Shown here in pieces: positions 6,617 to 16,733 of a DNA stretch of 64,000 nucleotides. The notes under the pieces are model-generated. The model saw only the letters and a list, made by a program, of their open reading frames with translations. It had not been told where the DNA came from and searched no databases. The stretch comes from Cyanobacterium sp. HL-69 (GTDB lineage: Bacteria > Cyanobacteriota > Cyanobacteriia > Cyanobacteriales > Cyanobacteriaceae). The translations under genes were made by a program, and so were the position numbers. Numbering within the stretch: the first letter of the stretch is position 1; each line of letters opens with the position of its first letter. The stretch spans positions 372,001-436,000 of the forward strand of contig CP024912.1 in NCBI GenBank assembly GCA_002813895.1, read 5' to 3'.

Positions 6617-7186
6617 ATGTTTCGTAAAATTCCTTTAGCATTAGTTGGTTTAATTATTGGCTCAATCTTGACAGCTGTAGGCTTTGTAGCCTATGCAAAA
6701 GGAAACTCTACCCTGAACTTAGCGGGATTTTTCTACGGAATTCCCCTTTTGTTGGGAGGACTTGCCCTCAAAGCCGCCGAATTGAAACCCGTACCGTTTT
6801 CCAAAGAAACCCCCAAAGAAGTCCTTAGTCTAAGGGAAGCCCAAGCCACCGATACTCAAAACCAGCTAAGAAAAGATGTCACTCGTTATCGCTACGGGCA
6901 AGAAGCCCATCTGGACGAAGCCTTGGAGCGCATAGGATTAAGCCCCACAGATGAAGAAAGACCTATTCTAACTACTCTCAAAGAAATAGAAATTGACGGT
7001 AAATATACCCTAGTCTTACAGTTTCAAACCCCTTTAATTTCCAGAGAAATATGGGAAGAAAAGTTAGACAAAATTACCAAATTCTTTGGTCCAGGTATCA
7101 CTGCTAAAATTCTCAGTTTTGATGATAATGTGATTGACTTAGCCCTTATTGCCTTATCTGAATCTAGTACCGTTGAAGTTGCCTAA
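6617..7186 (+). CDS. DUF2854 family membrane protein
   Basis: A 189-residue protein of a family shared by cyanobacteria and plant chloroplasts; function unknown. Two hydrophobic segments (about 6-26 and 33-52) form an N-terminal hairpin anchor. The rest is a soluble domain with RYRYGQEAHLDEALERIGLS (about 96-115) and IDGKYTLVLQFQTP, both typical of DUF2854. The gene is 15 bp ahead of the response regulator in the same direction, so the two may share a transcript. Confidence 0.85.
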   Translation: MFRKIPLALVGLIIGSILTAVGFVAYAKGNSTLNLAGFFYGIPLLLGGLALKAAELKPVPFSKETPKEVLSLREAQATDTQNQLRKDVTRYRYGQEAHLDEALERIGLSPTDEERPILTTLKEIEIDGKYTLVLQFQTPLISREIWEEKLDKITKFFGPGITAKILSFDDNVIDLALIALSESSTVEVA

Positions 7187-7201: not shown

Positions 7202-7846
7202 ATGAAAGACACACAAAACTCTAGTCCTAATAAATTACTTCTCATTGATGATGATCCTAACCTAATTTTGTTGGTTAAAGATTATCTCGAATTTAATGGT
7301 TATCAAGTGTTGATAGCGAGTCAGGGCAGAGAAGCCCTCAGTATTTTGGAAAGGGAAACACCGGATTTAATTATTTGTGATGTGATGATGCCCGAAATGG
7401 ATGGCTATACCTTTGTGGAAGAAATACGTCAAAATACCCAATGGAATCAATTACCTATCATCTTTTTATCAGCCAAAACCCAAACTCAAGATAGGATTAA
7501 AGGTTTAAATCAGGGGGCTGATGTATATTTAGTAAAACCTTTTGAGCCTGAAGAATTAGTTGCTCAAGTAAAATCTACTCTTAATTATAGTCAACGTCTG
7601 ATCAATAGTAATGCTGTAGGGGCTGATACCAAAAGGATTCAAGTACCTAAGTCGGTGGAGTTAACTCCCACAGAAACAAGAGTAGTGAGTTTGGTTTCTC
7701 AAGGTTTATCAAATCGGGAAATATCTATTGAGTTGGGGGTAAGTCAGCGCACCATAGAGAGTCATGTGTCGAATATGCTCAACAAAACGGGTTTACATAA
7801 TCGTACAGAGTTATCTCGTTGGGCGATTCAATCTCAGTTAGTCTAA
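7202..7846 (+). CDS. NarL/FixJ-family response regulator (Ycf29-like)
   Basis: A 214-residue DNA-binding response regulator. The receiver domain (about 12-128) has the acidic pocket DDD at 16-18, phosphoacceptor D60 in the CDVMMPEMDGY segment, and K112 in VKPF. The output domain (about 150-214) is a LuxR-type helix-turn-helix with LTPTE, GLSNREIS and VSQRTIESHVSNML. The arrangement resembles Ycf29, a regulator retained in cyanobacteria and red-algal plastids. No kinase is adjacent; the large sensor kinase 3.7 kb away is too distant to be assigned as partner. Confidence 0.85.
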   Translation: MKDTQNSSPNKLLLIDDDPNLILLVKDYLEFNGYQVLIASQGREALSILERETPDLIICDVMMPEMDGYTFVEEIRQNTQWNQLPIIFLSAKTQTQDRIKGLNQGADVYLVKPFEPEELVAQVKSTLNYSQRLINSNAVGADTKRIQVPKSVELTPTETRVVSLVSQGLSNREISIELGVSQRTIESHVSNMLNKTGLHNRTELSRWAIQSQLV

Positions 7847-11508: not shown

Positions 11509-14500
11509 ATGAATTATCCCACGGTAGAAAATGTCCCTCACATAGAAAATTGGGCAATCATTAATCATCAACCTGTCACAGTTTCCCCCGAAGCTACATT
11601 TTTAGAAGTATTAAGAAAGTTTGATCAAGGATGCGATTGTTTAATTGTTGTTGATTGTCATATTCCTTTAGGGGTTATTACCATCGAAAGAGTAATAAAA
11701 ATAATTACTACTGGGGTTAATATTTATTCTCTACGGGCAAGAAACTTTTGTCAGAGTTTTCCTTGTCAAAAAGAAACAGAATTAATAGACGTTTTTACCA
11801 TTGCCCAAGGAATTTTTCAAGGAAAATATGATGTTTATGGTTGTTTAAATGAAAGGGATAATTTTAATGGTTATATTAATGCTAAAAGTTTAATTCGTTA
11901 TCTTGTCACGGATTCTTTATATCAAAGAGTTACCTTAAACAGCATTTTTAAGCCTAATTTAATTGTAGTGGATCAGGGAGATAGTATTTTAAAAATAGCT
12001 GAAAAATATGTTGATAGCCTTGGGCAACATGGATTTGTTATTAATCATGATCAACAATTAAAAATAGTTTCTCCTCACGATATTGTCAAGGCTTTTATTG
12101 ATACAAGCTGGGAGAATCCGCACCTACAAAGTTTAAGTTTAGGAGAAATTCCTTGTTTTTCTTCTAAAGAAAAAATCCCTACTATTGTAAATGTTTTACA
12201 ACATAAATGGGCTGTTTTGGCACACCATCAAAATGGTACTTTAGAGCAGGAATTATCGAAGTCTTTTTGTGAGTTGGGTATAGGAAATATTTCCCACCAT
12301 AGTTTTGTTGAAAAATTGAGCTTAATCACCCCTTCCCATTTAATAGAGGTACTGAATCCTCTTTGGCAACAAAATTATTTACGACAACAACAGCAAGAAT
12401 TAGACTCTCTTAAAACGGCGGTAAGGTTAGAGCAAAAACAAGTTGAACAGGAAAAGTTATTATCTAGTCTTAGCTCTCGTATTCGCAAATCTTTGAAGTT
12501 AGATGATATTTTGGGGAGTACTGTCAATGAGGTACGTTCTTTTTTAGATTGCGATCGCGTGATAATCTACCAATTATACCCTGACGGAGACGGAGTGATT
12601 ATCGCTGAATCGGCAGGACAAAACGTCATGTCCATTTTAGGTAGAGTAGTGCAAGACCATTGTTTTGCCAAAGACTTTATTAAACCTTATCTAAATGGTA
12701 GAATCCAAGCGACAGACAATGTTTTTACTGCCAATTTATCCCCTTGTCACCTCGATTTATTGTTAGGGATTCAGGTACAGGCAAATTTAGTTGTGCCTAT
12801 TATTTTTCATGATCATCTTTGGGGTTTGTTGGCTGCCCAAAACTCCTTTACTCCCCGTCATTGGCAAAAAGATGAGTTAGATTTATTACAAAAATTAGCG
12901 GCTCAAGTGGCGATCGCCATTCAACAGTCACAGTCAGCCCAGAAAGCCTTTCAAGTGGCGAAATATCAAACAGCCATCGCCCACCTAGGTAATACAGCCC
13001 TTATCACCAACAACTTAGAAATATTACAAAAAACCACCGTCAAAATTATCGCCGAAACCCTCAATGTCAAATATTGTAACCTCCTCGAACTACAAGCCAA
13101 TCAAGCCGCCTTTGTCCTTAAGGCAGGGGTAGGATGGCAGGATATGTGGCTAGGGGTCGCCAGAGTCGGTTCTTCTCCCCGTTGGATGCCGGGGTACACC
13201 ATGACCGTCAAAGAGCCTGTCATTACCGAGGATTTGCTCGTAGAAACAAGATTTAGCCCTCCACCATTTTTGCACAACACCAACATTATTAGTGGGGCGA
13301 TGGTGAATATTGGTAGTAATGATAACTACTTTGGTATCATCGGCGTATATAGCCAAAATCAACGGAAATTTAGCCCCGAAGAAATTAACTTTTTACAAAC
13401 CGTCGCCAACGTTTTAGCTACCGCCACCCTGCGCACCAAATCCCAAAGACAGTTAGACTACTTTTTCAATTTATCCCTTGATATGTTTTGTATTGCGGGG
13501 GTTGACGGCTCATTTATACGGGTGAATTCCAGCTTTTCTACCACCCTCGGTTATGGGGAGGAGGAGATGATTAATAAAAATATGCTCTCCTTTATCCATC
13601 CCGATGATGTGGAAATCACCGCCGAAGAGTTAGAGAGATTGAGTCGAGGTTTTCCTAGTCAAAACTTTGAAAATCGTTGGCGCACCAAGGATGGATTATA
13701 TCGTTGGTTGGCATGGAAGAGTTTACCCTACGAGGAGGGAACCTTTTACGCTGTAGCACGGGATATTACTTTGGCAAAACAAGCCGAGGAACAGTTACGC
13801 AGTTTAAATGAAGAGTTAGAAACTAGGGTAAAAGACCGTACGGAGGAATTAGAGCAAACCACTACCCAGTTACGCACCTTTGTACAAACCGCAGGGACAG
13901 TGTTGGTGGTACTAAATCAAGATTATCGTATCATGGAATGGAATGAGGAGGCGGAAAAAATATTTGGTTGGACGAGGGAGTCGGTATTAGGAGAAGATTA
14001 CTTTTTATTGTTTGTTGCCCCCAGTGATAGGGATATTTTGAGGGAAAAACTAGATATTACCTTGGTAGAAGGTAAGGTACAACGGAATTTAGAAAGTAAG
14101 GTAATGGTGGCTGATGGCACTGAAAGGACTTTGTTATGGAATGTTAATCGCTTTACTGATGGTAAGGGAGAAGGTATTGGTATTATTGCCTGTGGGCAGG
14201 ATATTGAGGAGGTAAGACTGGCACAACTAAGGCTAAAGTTGAGTGAAGAAAGATTCCGCAGTATCTTTAACCAAGCGGCGGTGGGCATTGTGCAGGTAAG
14301 TCTTCCAGGGAAGTTGGTTTTGGTGAATGATAAGTTTACTCAGTTGGTGGGCTACAATCGCCATGAGTTGTCGGAGATGGATTTCCATGCTCTCATTCAT
14401 CCTGATGATGTTTCTGATACCCTCACGGATTTGTCGGAGTTGTTGGCTAGTAATCGGGCTACCTTTGAGCGAGAAATTAGGATAAAACGCCCCCACGGGG

Positions 14501-15657
14501 ATTATCTTTGGATATATCTTACTATGTCGGTGGTGTGGGTATCTGTAGAGCCATCTTACTTTATCGCTGTAATTAATGATATAAGTGATCGCAAACAGGC
14601 GGAAGAATCTTTACAAAAAAGTGAATCCCGTTTGAATAGTGTTCTTAGTTCGTTACAGGATGTAGTATGGTCAATGTCTTTACCAGATATGAATTTGCGC
14701 TACATTAACCCTGCCTGTGAAATATTATATGGTCATTCTCCTGCGTCTATTTTGGCAAATCGGGGATTGTTATTGGATATGGTAGCGCCAGAATATCGTC
14801 AAGATGTGGAGAATACATGGCAGGAGATTTTGGAGGGTTATAAACTAGGAATTTTGCAAAATGAAACCAATAAAAGTTGGGAATTAGAATATAAAATTAT
14901 TTTGTCCACAGGTAAAGAAAGATGGGTTAGAGAGCGATCGCACATAGTCTATGATAGATATGGTAGGGCTGTAAGTATTGACGGAATTTCTACCGATGTT
15001 ACCCAACGTCACGAAGCCGAAGAAAAACTATTCAAATCTCTCCAAGAAAAAGAAGTCCTACTTAAGGAAATCCATCATAGAGTCAAAAATAACCTCTATG
15101 TCATCTCAGGATTACTCAACCTGCAATCAAGCTATGTAGAAGATGAGCAAGTGCGTAACCTTTTCCACGATAGCCAAAACCGTATCCAAACCATGGCAGT
15201 CATCCATGAACAACTATATCAGTCCGATGACCTTTCCGAAATAAATCTTGCCGACTACATAAACCGCCTCGTATCTAACCTTTTCCTCTCTTATAACAAT
15301 AGCCGAGAAGGTATCAAACCCGTAACCAATCTCGCCGAATGTTATCTCAACATTGAAACCGCTATCCCCGCAGGTTTACTCATCAATGAATTAGTTACCA
15401 ATGCTTTTAAACACGCTTTCCCCCACGGCAAAGGGGAAGTAACCATTAATTTATTCCTTAAAAATGAACAACATATTATCCTTGAAGTAAAAGATAACGG
15501 TAAAGGTTTTCCTGATGATTTAAACTGGGAAGAAAGTCCTTCTTTAGGCTTAAGATTAGTAAGGTTATTAACTCAACAATTAGACGCAGAAATTGAGGTT
15601 ACTTCTTTTAAAAATGAAGGTACTTGTTTTTGTTTAGATTTTGCCCCTATTAGTTAA
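11509..15657 (+). CDS. CBS-GAF(cyanobacteriochrome)-GAF-PAS4 sensor histidine kinase
   Basis: A 1382-residue soluble sensor kinase. Order: CBS repeats (about 15-290), a short coiled coil, GAF1 (about 325-478), GAF2 (about 495-640), PAS1 (645-760), coiled coil, PAS2 (790-905), PAS3 (911-1030), PAS4 (1038-1165), HisKA_2 with EIHHRVKNN (phosphoacceptor probably H1190), and HATPase_c with NELVTNAFKHAF (N box) and DNGKGF (G1 box). GAF1 has the DXCF motif D383-H384-C385-F386 and the bilin-attachment pair C413-H414, spaced 28 residues as in TePixJ, plus ANLVVPI and LWGLL. It is therefore predicted to be a bilin-binding DXCF cyanobacteriochrome. GAF2 lacks these cysteines. There is no receiver domain and no adjacent regulator, so its output is unknown. 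Confidence 0.9.
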   Translation: MNYPTVENVPHIENWAIINHQPVTVSPEATFLEVLRKFDQGCDCLIVVDCHIPLGVITIERVIKIITTGVNIYSLRARNFCQSFPCQKETELIDVFTIAQGIFQGKYDVYGCLNERDNFNGYINAKSLIRYLVTDSLYQRVTLNSIFKPNLIVVDQGDSILKIAEKYVDSLGQHGFVINHDQQLKIVSPHDIVKAFIDTSWENPHLQSLSLGEIPCFSSKEKIPTIVNVLQHKWAVLAHHQNGTLEQELSKSFCELGIGNISHHSFVEKLSLITPSHLIEVLNPLWQQNYLRQQQQELDSLKTAVRLEQKQVEQEKLLSSLSSRIRKSLKLDDILGSTVNEVRSFLDCDRVIIYQLYPDGDGVIIAESAGQNVMSILGRVVQDHCFAKDFIKPYLNGRIQATDNVFTANLSPCHLDLLLGIQVQANLVVPIIFHDHLWGLLAAQNSFTPRHWQKDELDLLQKLAAQVAIAIQQSQSAQKAFQVAKYQTAIAHLGNTALITNNLEILQKTTVKIIAETLNVKYCNLLELQANQAAFVLKAGVGWQDMWLGVARVGSSPRWMPGYTMTVKEPVITEDLLVETRFSPPPFLHNTNIISGAMVNIGSNDNYFGIIGVYSQNQRKFSPEEINFLQTVANVLATATLRTKSQRQLDYFFNLSLDMFCIAGVDGSFIRVNSSFSTTLGYGEEEMINKNMLSFIHPDDVEITAEELERLSRGFPSQNFENRWRTKDGLYRWLAWKSLPYEEGTFYAVARDITLAKQAEEQLRSLNEELETRVKDRTEELEQTTTQLRTFVQTAGTVLVVLNQDYRIMEWNEEAEKIFGWTRESVLGEDYFLLFVAPSDRDILREKLDITLVEGKVQRNLESKVMVADGTERTLLWNVNRFTDGKGEGIGIIACGQDIEEVRLAQLRLKLSEERFRSIFNQAAVGIVQVSLPGKLVLVNDKFTQLVGYNRHELSEMDFHALIHPDDVSDTLTDLSELLASNRATFEREIRIKRPHGDYLWIYLTMSVVWVSVEPSYFIAVINDISDRKQAEESLQKSESRLNSVLSSLQDVVWSMSLPDMNLRYINPACEILYGHSPASILANRGLLLDMVAPEYRQDVENTWQEILEGYKLGILQNETNKSWELEYKIILSTGKERWVRERSHIVYDRYGRAVSIDGISTDVTQRHEAEEKLFKSLQEKEVLLKEIHHRVKNNLYVISGLLNLQSSYVEDEQVRNLFHDSQNRIQTMAVIHEQLYQSDDLSEINLADYINRLVSNLFLSYNNSREGIKPVTNLAECYLNIETAIPAGLLINELVTNAFKHAFPHGKGEVTINLFLKNEQHIILEVKDNGKGFPDDLNWEESPSLGLRLVRLLTQQLDAEIEVTSFKNEGTCFCLDFAPIS

Positions 15658-15716: not shown

Positions 15717-16733
15717 CTATCTAATATTTATATCTTCTAATTGTTTCTGTGTTGACTTACTTAAATTATATTGATCTACTGTCAATTTAATTTGTGTGAT
15801 AATATCATTAATTAATGGCACAATGACAGAATTTCCAAACTGTTTATATGCCTGATTATCAGATACTGGAATTATAAAATCATCAGGAAAACCTTGTAAT
15901 TTTGCACACTCACGGGGGGTTAAACGTCGGGGATTTTTATTACTTTGCTCAACTAAGATTTCTGAGCCATCCTTATAGTATCTAGCACTTAAAGTTCTAG
16001 TGTATTCAGATTTGTGATCAATAATTCCGTAGCCAAAACCATTTCCTTTCGCTTTGCTATTCTCTTTATGTTGTTGTAAATAACTCCATAATTTATCTGA
16101 TAAAGTATATTTATTATCTACATTTTCTTCAAAAAGATCTTGTAATTCATACAATCTTTTTTGTGGTGGATTGGGAAAAATAAAATTGAGATCAGGAAAA
16201 TGGTTTTGGTTAAAACAGATAATAAAAATCCTTTCTCTATGTTGAGGAAGATAGTATTTACCATCAATTACTTGAGAAAAAATATTATAACCTCTTTGGG
16301 ATAATTTACTTTTAATCACCTTCCATGTATTTCCTTTATCGTGACTTTTTAAATTTTTGACATTCTCTAAAAAAATTACTTTTGGTTGATGATAGTCAAT
16401 GATTCTTAAAATCTCAAAAAATAAATTACCTTGTTTTTCGTCATCGAAGCCATGCTTTCTGCCTAAAGATTGTTTTTTGCTCACCCCTGCAATGGAAAAG
16501 GGTTGACAAGGAAAACCTCCGCATAATAAATCGAAACTAGGTATTGTTTCTGCGGGAATCTCATTTAAATCGGCACAATGGATGTCTCCAAAGTTTGCTG
16601 AATAAGTTTGACAACTATATTTATTATGATCATTGGAGTAAACGCATTGTATTCCGTTTTTTTCGAGGGCTAGTCTAAATCCCCCAATCCCTGCAAATAA
16701 ATCTATGGCTGTTTTGATTTGTTGTTGATTCAA
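15717..16733 (-). CDS. DNA (cytosine-5)-methyltransferase, Dcm-like, solitary
   Basis: A 338-residue C5-cytosine methyltransferase. Motif I is DLFAGIGGFR (11-20), motif IV is GGFPCQPFS with catalytic C76, motif VI ENV (123-125), motif VIII LPQHRERIF (162-170). The region before the end, with RGYNIFSQ, GNGFGYG and TRTLSARYYKDG, is close to EcoRII/Dcm enzymes. Motif IX/X are RRLTPRECAKLQGFPDDF and QFGNSVIVP. No restriction endonuclease is adjacent: YraN follows 153 bp away. The target is not readable. Dcm-type CCWGG and the HIP1-related CGATCG (methylated by a C5 enzyme in Synechocystis) are the obvious candidates. Confidence 0.92.
   Translation of the reverse strand: MNQQQIKTAIDLFAGIGGFRLALEKNGIQCVYSNDHNKYSCQTYSANFGDIHCADLNEIPAETIPSFDLLCGGFPCQPFSIAGVSKKQSLGRKHGFDDEKQGNLFFEILRIIDYHQPKVIFLENVKNLKSHDKGNTWKVIKSKLSQRGYNIFSQVIDGKYYLPQHRERIFIICFNQNHFPDLNFIFPNPPQKRLYELQDLFEENVDNKYTLSDKLWSYLQQHKENSKAKGNGFGYGIIDHKSEYTRTLSARYYKDGSEILVEQSNKNPRRLTPRECAKLQGFPDDFIIPVSDNQAYKQFGNSVIVPLINDIITQIKLTVDQYNLSKSTQKQLEDINIR

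Follow-up and report, generated by a model that had tools for sequence, protein, structure and literature searches.

The locus considered here raises the question of whether the first of two GAF domains in a very large sensor kinase is an ordinary GAF domain or a bilin-binding light sensor and, if the latter, which colours of light it would distinguish.

Architecture and annotation of the kinase

The gene for the 1382-residue sensor kinase is located at positions 11509..15657 on the + strand of the window, which is the whole 64,000-nucleotide stretch of DNA that was analysed, and all features of the kinase described below lie on this same strand. The gene is defined by its open reading frame, by Pfam matches and by full-length orthologues. 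Its product carries, in order, an N-terminal region modelled as four CBS repeats, two GAF domains (GAF1 and GAF2), four PAS domains, a HisKA_2 domain and a HATPase domain. The GAF1 domain spans residues 325-478 (12481..12942), as indicated by phmmer matches to PDB sequences, by an AlphaFold model searched with Foldseek, and by conservation. A preliminary description of this DNA had bounded the domain at 12481-12943, wherein the start coincides with codon 325 and the end falls one base past codon 478. The GAF2 domain (residues 490-650, 12976..13458) is recognized by Pfam as GAF at 44.1 bits. Neither a DXCF nor a Cys-His motif is present in its sequence, and GAF2 is probably a non-bilin-binding domain.

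The four PAS domains (residues about 658-1172, 13480..15024) are matched by Pfam PAS families and by TIGR00229 in four stretches. They are followed by the HisKA_2 dimerisation and phosphoacceptor domain with its EIHHRVKNN motif (residues 1187-1262, 15067..15294, Pfam 104.2 bits) and by a HATPase_c domain that carries the N, G1 and G2 boxes (residues 1290-1377, 15376..15639, Pfam 48.1 bits and alignment). There is also a match to the Pfam family HWE_HK at 24.0 bits against a cut-off of 22.8. The HHRVKNN sequence is conserved across 10 aligned orthologous kinases, and the kinase boxes are intact in these 10 sequences, although one of them is truncated past the G1 box where its contig stops. With both domains and the H, N and G boxes present, the protein is a histidine kinase of the HisKA_2 type. 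The PixJ class of phototaxis receptors was rejected, since the output here is HisKA_2 plus HATPase and there is no methyl-accepting chemotaxis output.

The available domain models give little hint of a light sensor. Pfam names GAF1 as GAF and nothing more specific, and no PHY domain was found after GAF1 among the 14 Pfam families that match the kinase at E up to 0.01. There is no cyanobacteriochrome model among the 25 NCBIfam matches listed of 40, and the NCBIfam bacteriophytochrome (BphP) model scores 34.2 bits, far below its cut-off of 1040. Thus, the expectation in the preliminary description that a plain GAF annotation would overlook a cyanobacteriochrome here is borne out. No paper on this kinase or its orthologues was found among the matches listed in a search of open-licence literature by titles and the starts of abstracts, and PMC7504144, PMC10151467 and PMC13383048, as excerpted, have no bearing on it.

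The first GAF domain as a very probable DXCF cyanobacteriochrome

The residues D383-H384-C385-F386 (12655..12666) form a DXCF motif that aligns with D492-P-C494-F of the TePixJ photoreceptor. Within this motif, C385 (12661-12663) is the counterpart of TePixJ C494 and is predicted to be the second cysteine that adds to C10 of the bilin. The pair C413-H414 (12745..12750) aligns with TePixJ C522-H523 and is predicted to supply the canonical cysteine for ring A together with the next His. The spacing of 28 residues between the two cysteines (413-385) equals that between C494 and C522. Both motifs and this spacing had been reported in the preliminary description, along with other marks of the class, and SILG, ANLVVPI and LWGLL are indeed located at residues 375-378, 425-431 and 437-441, respectively. 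The check it had proposed, alignment to a characterised cyanobacteriochrome, places C385 on C494 and C413 on C522 in a phmmer alignment with TePixJ that runs through residues 336-473 with no gap and with 52 of 138 residues identical. An insert-Cys cyanobacteriochrome is thereby excluded because there is no insertion relative to TePixJ.

A phmmer search of PDB sequences with GAF1 yields 99 matches at E up to 0.001, among which the TePixJ entries score E 6.5e-30 to 2.2e-29 (4fof, E 7e-30). The AlphaFold model of GAF1, computed from an alignment of this domain with 44 of 80 named loci, has a mean pLDDT of 86.7 and a pTM of 0.84. Foldseek places at the top of the 50 best of 1078 PDB matches the entries 6oap, 6oaq and 6ob8, TePixJ (4fof and 4glq), miRFP670nano and AnPixJg2 (3w2z), with a TM score to target of 0.91 and an rmsd of 1.4 for 4glq. 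Wherever titles tell, the best 60 of the 99 sequence matches and the best 50 of the 1078 fold matches are cyanobacteriochromes, phytochromes or fluorescent proteins derived from them. A viral fold library returned at best distant GAF matches among its 50 best. The model was built without a chromophore, and so it supports the fold and is silent on colour.

The best match by sequence (6oap, E 3.8e-42) and by fold (6oap, 6oaq and 6ob8, TM score to query up to 0.94, 43% identity) is a dual sensor histidine kinase wherein a bilin GAF domain resides inside a histidine kinase, as it would here. However, this protein carries D-Q-Y-F at the DXCF site and thus has no second cysteine there, unlike GAF1, and its solved state is named green-absorbing. 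The TePixJ GAF domain (4fof, 4glq, 3vv4 and 2m7u) shares with GAF1 the fold, the DXCF and CH motifs and the pocket Asp, Phe, His and Asn, and the counterparts of TePixJ D492, F495, R507, H523 and N535 are all retained. The two proteins differ in output, which is a chemotaxis receptor for TePixJ and a histidine kinase here, and also at several positions in the pocket. According to the part of PMC6955287 that treats this pocket, the B-ring propionate of TePixJ is held by H498 and W499; in GAF1 these two are replaced by D389 and F390, Q526 by L417, P493 by H384 and I551 by A442. The H498, W499 and Q526 replacements could affect the stability and the dark reversion of GAF1.

Cyanobacteriochromes of the extended red/green (XRG) lineage, such as AnPixJg2, NpR6012g4 and Slr1393g3, share the canonical cysteine and the overall fold with GAF1. 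In contrast to these proteins, GAF1 reads V381-Q-D383-H-C-F, wherein the Trp of the WXDXXL motif is missing; it also lacks the trapped-twist Phe residues and has the second cysteine. Membership of the XRG lineage was therefore rejected.

Matches to the kinase that begin at residues 1-17 and reach residue 486 are found in 14 of the 15 genomes of the family (this genome included), and the sole genome without a long match is 67% complete. None of the 14 sequences (the kinase and 13 orthologues) departs from D383, C385, F386 or C413, whereas position 414 is occupied by His in 12 of them and by Tyr in two. Outside the family, a long match is present in at least four of 195 genomes of the order, in a scan at E up to 1e-55 with no more than six candidates scored per genome, so that orthologues may be missed. 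Each of these four matches contains DXCF together with a Cys whose next residue is His or Tyr. The orthologue group used for residue counts has 17 rows that represent 14 distinct GAF1 sequences, since the named loci L059 (a cyanobacterial MAG), L060 (Geminocystis sp. GBBB08) and L061 (a MAG) equal L016, L019 and L026. Within this group, all 17 rows have Asp at the TePixJ H498 position, and the W499 position holds Phe in 15 rows and Ser in two.

This conservation bears on a rival explanation, which is that GAF1 is a degenerate cyanobacteriochrome that has lost bilin binding and persists as a GAF domain with a structural or small-ligand role. A degenerate-looking relative (L003/L006) in this genome carries DPCI and lacks the canonical cysteine, and the B-ring propionate residues of GAF1 are unlike those of TePixJ. 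However, both cysteines and the Asp and Phe of the motif are identical in 14 of 14 sequences, and GAF1 has the lowest dN/dS of the three regions compared. By the NG86 method, GAF1 has a ratio of 0.029-0.045 in seven of eight comparisons, with no computable value in the eighth. GAF2 gives 0.079-0.125 in the four of eight comparisons with a computable value, and residues 17-300 give 0.226-0.634 in all eight. These values are rough, since most dS values exceed 1. Invariant positions number 79 of 154 in GAF1 vs 29 of 284 in residues 17-300. We consider loss of bilin binding very unlikely.

Chromophore supply is consistent with a functional photoreceptor. The genome has a single match to the Fe_bilin_red family, at C1:254312-254971, and this gene is a PcyA equivalog by NCBIfam (358 bits, cut-off 206), with five other listed reductase models scoring below their own cut-offs on it. 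A heme oxygenase is also encoded (297.5 bits). With heme oxygenase and PcyA both present, phycocyanobilin (PCB) should be available. Thus, the DXCF motif, the canonical Cys-His pair, the stand-alone bilin GAF fold and a PCB-capable host are found together, and GAF1 is very probably a DXCF cyanobacteriochrome with two cysteines, whose dark state is predicted to absorb blue light. This would provide a blue-light input for a large kinase that is otherwise annotated as a GAF/PAS kinase and whose gene is found in 14 of the 15 family genomes searched.

DXCF domains are common, and GAF1 joins an established type. At least three other large frames in this genome contain GAF domains with DXCF plus Cys-His, with two such domains in one frame, one in the next and one in the third. 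A comparison set was assembled from the best 80 named loci by DNA patterns for CDRVI[VI]YQ and [QE][VI][QR]ANLVVP, and for this reason residue counts from it are biased. By a simple pattern, the best GAF domain has DXCF plus Cys-His or Cys-Tyr in 45 of these 80 loci, a sample picked for similar motifs. A tree of 112 rows, from which one short row (L075) was left out, recovers the orthologue group as a clade with support 100/99, with L055 and L057 adjoining it (96/95), and joins TePixJ to three GAF domains from two of the other DXCF frames of this genome (100/98). Above the orthologue group, the deep forks are weak and the placement is uninformative. Several points weigh against our preferred explanation: GAF1 and TePixJ are not united in the tree, TePixJ H498, W499, Q526, I551 and P493 are replaced, and Tyr follows the canonical cysteine in two of 14 sequences.

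Predicted colours of the photocycle

According to the part of PMC6955287 on this chromophore, ring A of the TePixJ bilin is held by C522 and C10 by C494, and the shorter conjugated system that results absorbs blue light. By the same chemistry, GAF1 would take up PCB made by the heme oxygenase and PcyA of the cell, with C413 joined permanently to ring A through a thioether. C385 is predicted to add to C10 in the dark-adapted 15Z state and to split the conjugated system, so that the domain absorbs blue light. Blue light would then flip the C15=C16 bond, and the C385 link would break. The resulting photoproduct would absorb green light if the pocket has turned PCB into its isomer phycoviolobilin (PVB), orange or red light if PCB is kept, or both if a mixture is bound. 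The blue state would be restored by longer-wavelength light or by dark reversion.

A close parallel for this uncertainty in colour is Tlr0924 (SesA), a DXCF blue/green receptor of the dual-cysteine type with a blue dark state, in which a mixture of PCB and PVB is possible. According to the account of its photochemistry in PMC4067208, as excerpted, the PCB-bound and PVB-bound blue states share the same visible maximum, the photoproduct is green with PVB and red with PCB, and isomerisation of PCB to PVB is only partial. Because the two blue states look alike in Tlr0924, the blue dark state is the firm prediction for GAF1 and the photoproduct is less sure.

Residues that steer the isomerisation are known for AnPixJg2, where W289, T292 and A350 are named in sections of PMC11284453, and these sites correspond to V381, H384 and A442 in the kinase and to I490, P493 and I551 in TePixJ. 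The Trp at the W289 site is said there to be the strongest brake on PCB-to-PVB isomerisation. GAF1 has no Trp at this site (V381), its H384 is unlike the hydrophobic residue near ring A in TePixJ, and A442 is like the residue of PCB binders. The position of A442 (12832..12834) was assigned from the C413+29 register and is equivalent to AnPixJg2 A350, TePixJ I551 and MCC3606390g2 I1076 near ring D.

These residues bear on a rival explanation in which GAF1 is a DXCF cyanobacteriochrome that retains PCB, or a PCB/PVB mixture, and is blue/orange or blue/red but not blue/green. A442 matches A350 of AnPixJg2, which binds PCB, whereas the PVB binders TePixJ and MCC3606390g2 have Ile. The C413+29 site is Ala in 17 of 17 orthologue-group rows (14 distinct sequences) vs Ile in 44 and Ala in one (L055, a near relative) of 55 other DXCF rows, a count composed of 47 rows plus eight DXCF rows with other spacing and excluding TePixJ. 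Ala at this site is not unique to the orthologue lineage, as it also occurs in 13 of 18 DPCI, DPCV or DPCL rows, in AnPixJg2 and in NpR6012g4. In addition, H384 replaces Pro or Val near ring A, and the partial isomerisation in Tlr0924 (PMC4067208, in part) provides a precedent. The mutants of MCC3606390g2 listed in PMC11284453 cut both ways: C1015W alone retains 14.7% PCB and C1015W with I1076A 33.9%, but I1076A alone is still 99.4% PVB (Table 1 of that paper). Moreover, MCC3606390g2 lacks the DXCF cysteine, so its rules may not transfer, and the Trp that most hinders isomerisation is missing from GAF1. Taken as a whole, retention of PCB is a plausible explanation, although we judge it to be somewhat less likely than not.

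Another rival explanation is that GAF1 is a teal-type DXCF receptor with a trapped-twist 15E photoproduct. Teal DXCF receptors do exist, and Phe residues at a strand-beta2 and a helix-4 position give trapped-twist products in red/green and teal types, as covered in part of PMC5240096. However, these two sites in GAF1 are I364 (12598..12600, register from the AnPixJg2 alignment) and I421 (12769..12771, C413+8). Since neither is Phe, a teal photoproduct has only a slight chance of being correct.

The preliminary description had called the kinase a blue/green photoreceptor. The blue part is upheld by the two-cysteine arrangement, whichever bilin is bound, whereas the green part was overstated given V381, H384 and A442 in place of I490, P493 and I551. 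Green and orange or red photoproducts are both plausible. Assuming that GAF1 works as proposed, we give a green PVB product approximately a little better than even chances and an orange/red PCB or clearly mixed product chances somewhat short of even, and we see very little prospect of a teal or other product. A violet photocycle, which had also been mentioned, found no support. Ala is fixed in the orthologue lineage at a site that is Ile in most of the relatives sampled, and this offers a clean test of PVB vs PCB in DXCF receptors.

Proposed signal output, a probable second input and a candidate partner

From GAF1, the switch would be passed along GAF2 and the PAS domains until it reaches the HisKA_2 kinase, whose phosphate most likely goes to a receiver domain encoded elsewhere. 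We consider this explanation as a whole, from a bilin-binding DXCF GAF1 domain to a kinase relay, to be highly likely. Its direct basis comprises the motifs, the register, the fold match, conservation, the kinase boxes, the bilin enzymes and the linkage of a partner gene in a related genus; we infer bilin binding, adduct chemistry, colours, kinase control, phosphotransfer and the CBS ligand. The diguanylate cyclase output of Tlr0924/SesA differs from the HisKA_2 kinase here; PMC8846402 describes, in the section concerned, the outputs of SesA, SesB and SesC.

The N-terminal region of the kinase (residues 17-283, 11557..12357) is modelled as four CBS repeats, or two Bateman modules, that resemble AMPK gamma. 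Pfam CBS matches the N-terminus at 45.1 bits, in two stretches at E up to 1, and Pfam also places CBS at residues 17-66. AlphaFold models of the first 310 residues were made from a four-row alignment (the kinase and three named orthologues), and one of the five is confident, with a mean pLDDT of 76.8, whereas the others range from 37.7 to 40.7. The archaeal AMPK gamma homologue MJ1225 is the best Foldseek match for this region (E 1.1e-13, TM score to query 0.62), and many AMPK gamma chains are returned as well. Residues 17-300 are the same poorly conserved stretch noted above. SesA reportedly has an N-terminal CBS domain.

The CBS array is probably a second input. Nucleotide binding by the array, if it occurs, would bring light colour and energy state together in a single protein. 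A more elaborate proposal is that the kinase is a two-input phosphorelay head, wherein an AMPK-gamma-like adenylate module and a PCB-retaining blue GAF1 together govern a HisKA_2 domain that drives a partner with receiver (REC), HisKA and HATPase domains. If true, one pathway would weigh light colour vs cell energy in this cyanobacterial family, but we regard this proposal as unlikely. Relative to the preliminary description, from which the CBS region was absent, the modelled four-CBS N-terminus and the candidate partner are new.

There is no response regulator adjoining the kinase within the 64-kb window. The neighbours of the kinase are mostly unshared, as only one of nine orthologous loci (L141 from genome G004, of the same genus) keeps four upstream genes, and the downstream side of that locus ends at a contig end. 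In other relatives, a gene of 365-378 codons is located directly 3' of the kinase on the same strand, at a distance of 163 bases in L144 (genome G008), 46 in L146 (G010) and 20 in L060. The L060 copy encodes a receiver followed by HisKA and HATPase domains. By coordinates, this gene follows the kinase on the same strand in all five genomes of genus g3 (G007, G008, G009, G010 and G011), where the gaps in G007 and G009, estimated from match ends, are at most about 0.3 kb. In the nine other genomes with both genes, this one included, the two are apart or on different contigs.

Full-length homologues of the REC-HisKA-HATPase protein are found in 15 of 15 family genomes at 44-100% identity. The 44% homologue, in the incomplete genome G012, has an internal stop, and in the other 14 genomes the match scores well above the next match listed. 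The copy in this genome is a 366-codon ORF in L159 (1495-2595), at about 319583-320683 of C1, where the homology match covers C1:319589-320662. It is 68% identical, keeps the receiver LMDIM and HisKA SHDLR motifs, and lies beyond the window at a distance of about 63 kb from the kinase. This protein is the best candidate for a receiver partner of the kinase. Since one evolutionary event could account for the linkage in this single genus, we consider the protein as a candidate partner only. With this candidate from the comparison of relatives, the pathway becomes accessible to in vitro work.

Two other views of the neighbourhood were rejected. An orphan kinase without a linked regulator does not fit the REC-HisKA-HATPase gene seen among the genes beside nine orthologous kinases. 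A NarL-type regulator at 7202-7846 lies 3.7 kb upstream of the kinase with opposite-strand genes between, and beside orthologous kinases it has only partial matches that are 33-35% identical. One of these partial matches is the receiver of the REC-HisKA-HATPase gene itself.

A candidate partner for the kinase

In all five genomes of the related genus g3, the orthologous kinase is followed by a gene for a homologue of a REC-HisKA-HATPase protein that is encoded outside the window in the HL-69 genome (G000:C1:319589-320662; locus L159). This gene association causes us to consider the L159 protein as a candidate partner of the kinase. In HL-69, the end of its gene is overlapped by the gene for a 372-residue protein.

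Neighbouring genes and the N-terminal region

A NarL-type response regulator (REC and GerE domains; window 7202-7846, + strand) is encoded 3.7 kb upstream of the kinase, and only weak partial matches to it are found near orthologous kinases. Located 4.3 kb upstream is a DUF2854 gene (window 6617-7186, + strand; 225.6 bits). In the related genome G014, the orthologous kinase is followed after 146 bases by a gene with 72% identity to this DUF2854 gene (L145 11455-12000), and the presence of such a gene near the kinase in both genomes may be due to chance. Directly downstream of the kinase is a gene for a C5 cytosine DNA methylase (window 15717-16733, - strand; 316 bits), for which there is no match beside orthologous kinases in the compared stretches, wherein the downstream side of L141, the orthologue locus in G004, ends at the contig end. 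Kinase residues 1-310 (window 11509-12438), which are modelled as a predicted four-CBS, AMPK-gamma-like region, have diverged much faster than the GAF domains.

Other GAF domains with DXCF or DPCI

Two large adjacent frames at G000:C1:819740-824156 (L002-L004 and L006) carry DXCF GAF domains that cluster with TePixJ. A further GAF domain in this region looks degenerate, since it carries DPCI and the canonical Cys is missing. Another large frame, of 1356 amino acids (G000:C1:2238055-2239914; L005 and L010), includes a GAF domain with DACF and CH, and its second GAF domain is degenerate.

There is also a group of GAF domains, found mainly in Nostocaceae, wherein DPCI replaces DPCF, Cys-His is retained and Ala occupies the position 29 residues after the canonical Cys (L066, L077, L082, L084, L087, L088, L090, L098, L104, L106, L107, L113 and L118). 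This group possibly represents a DXCI subtype.
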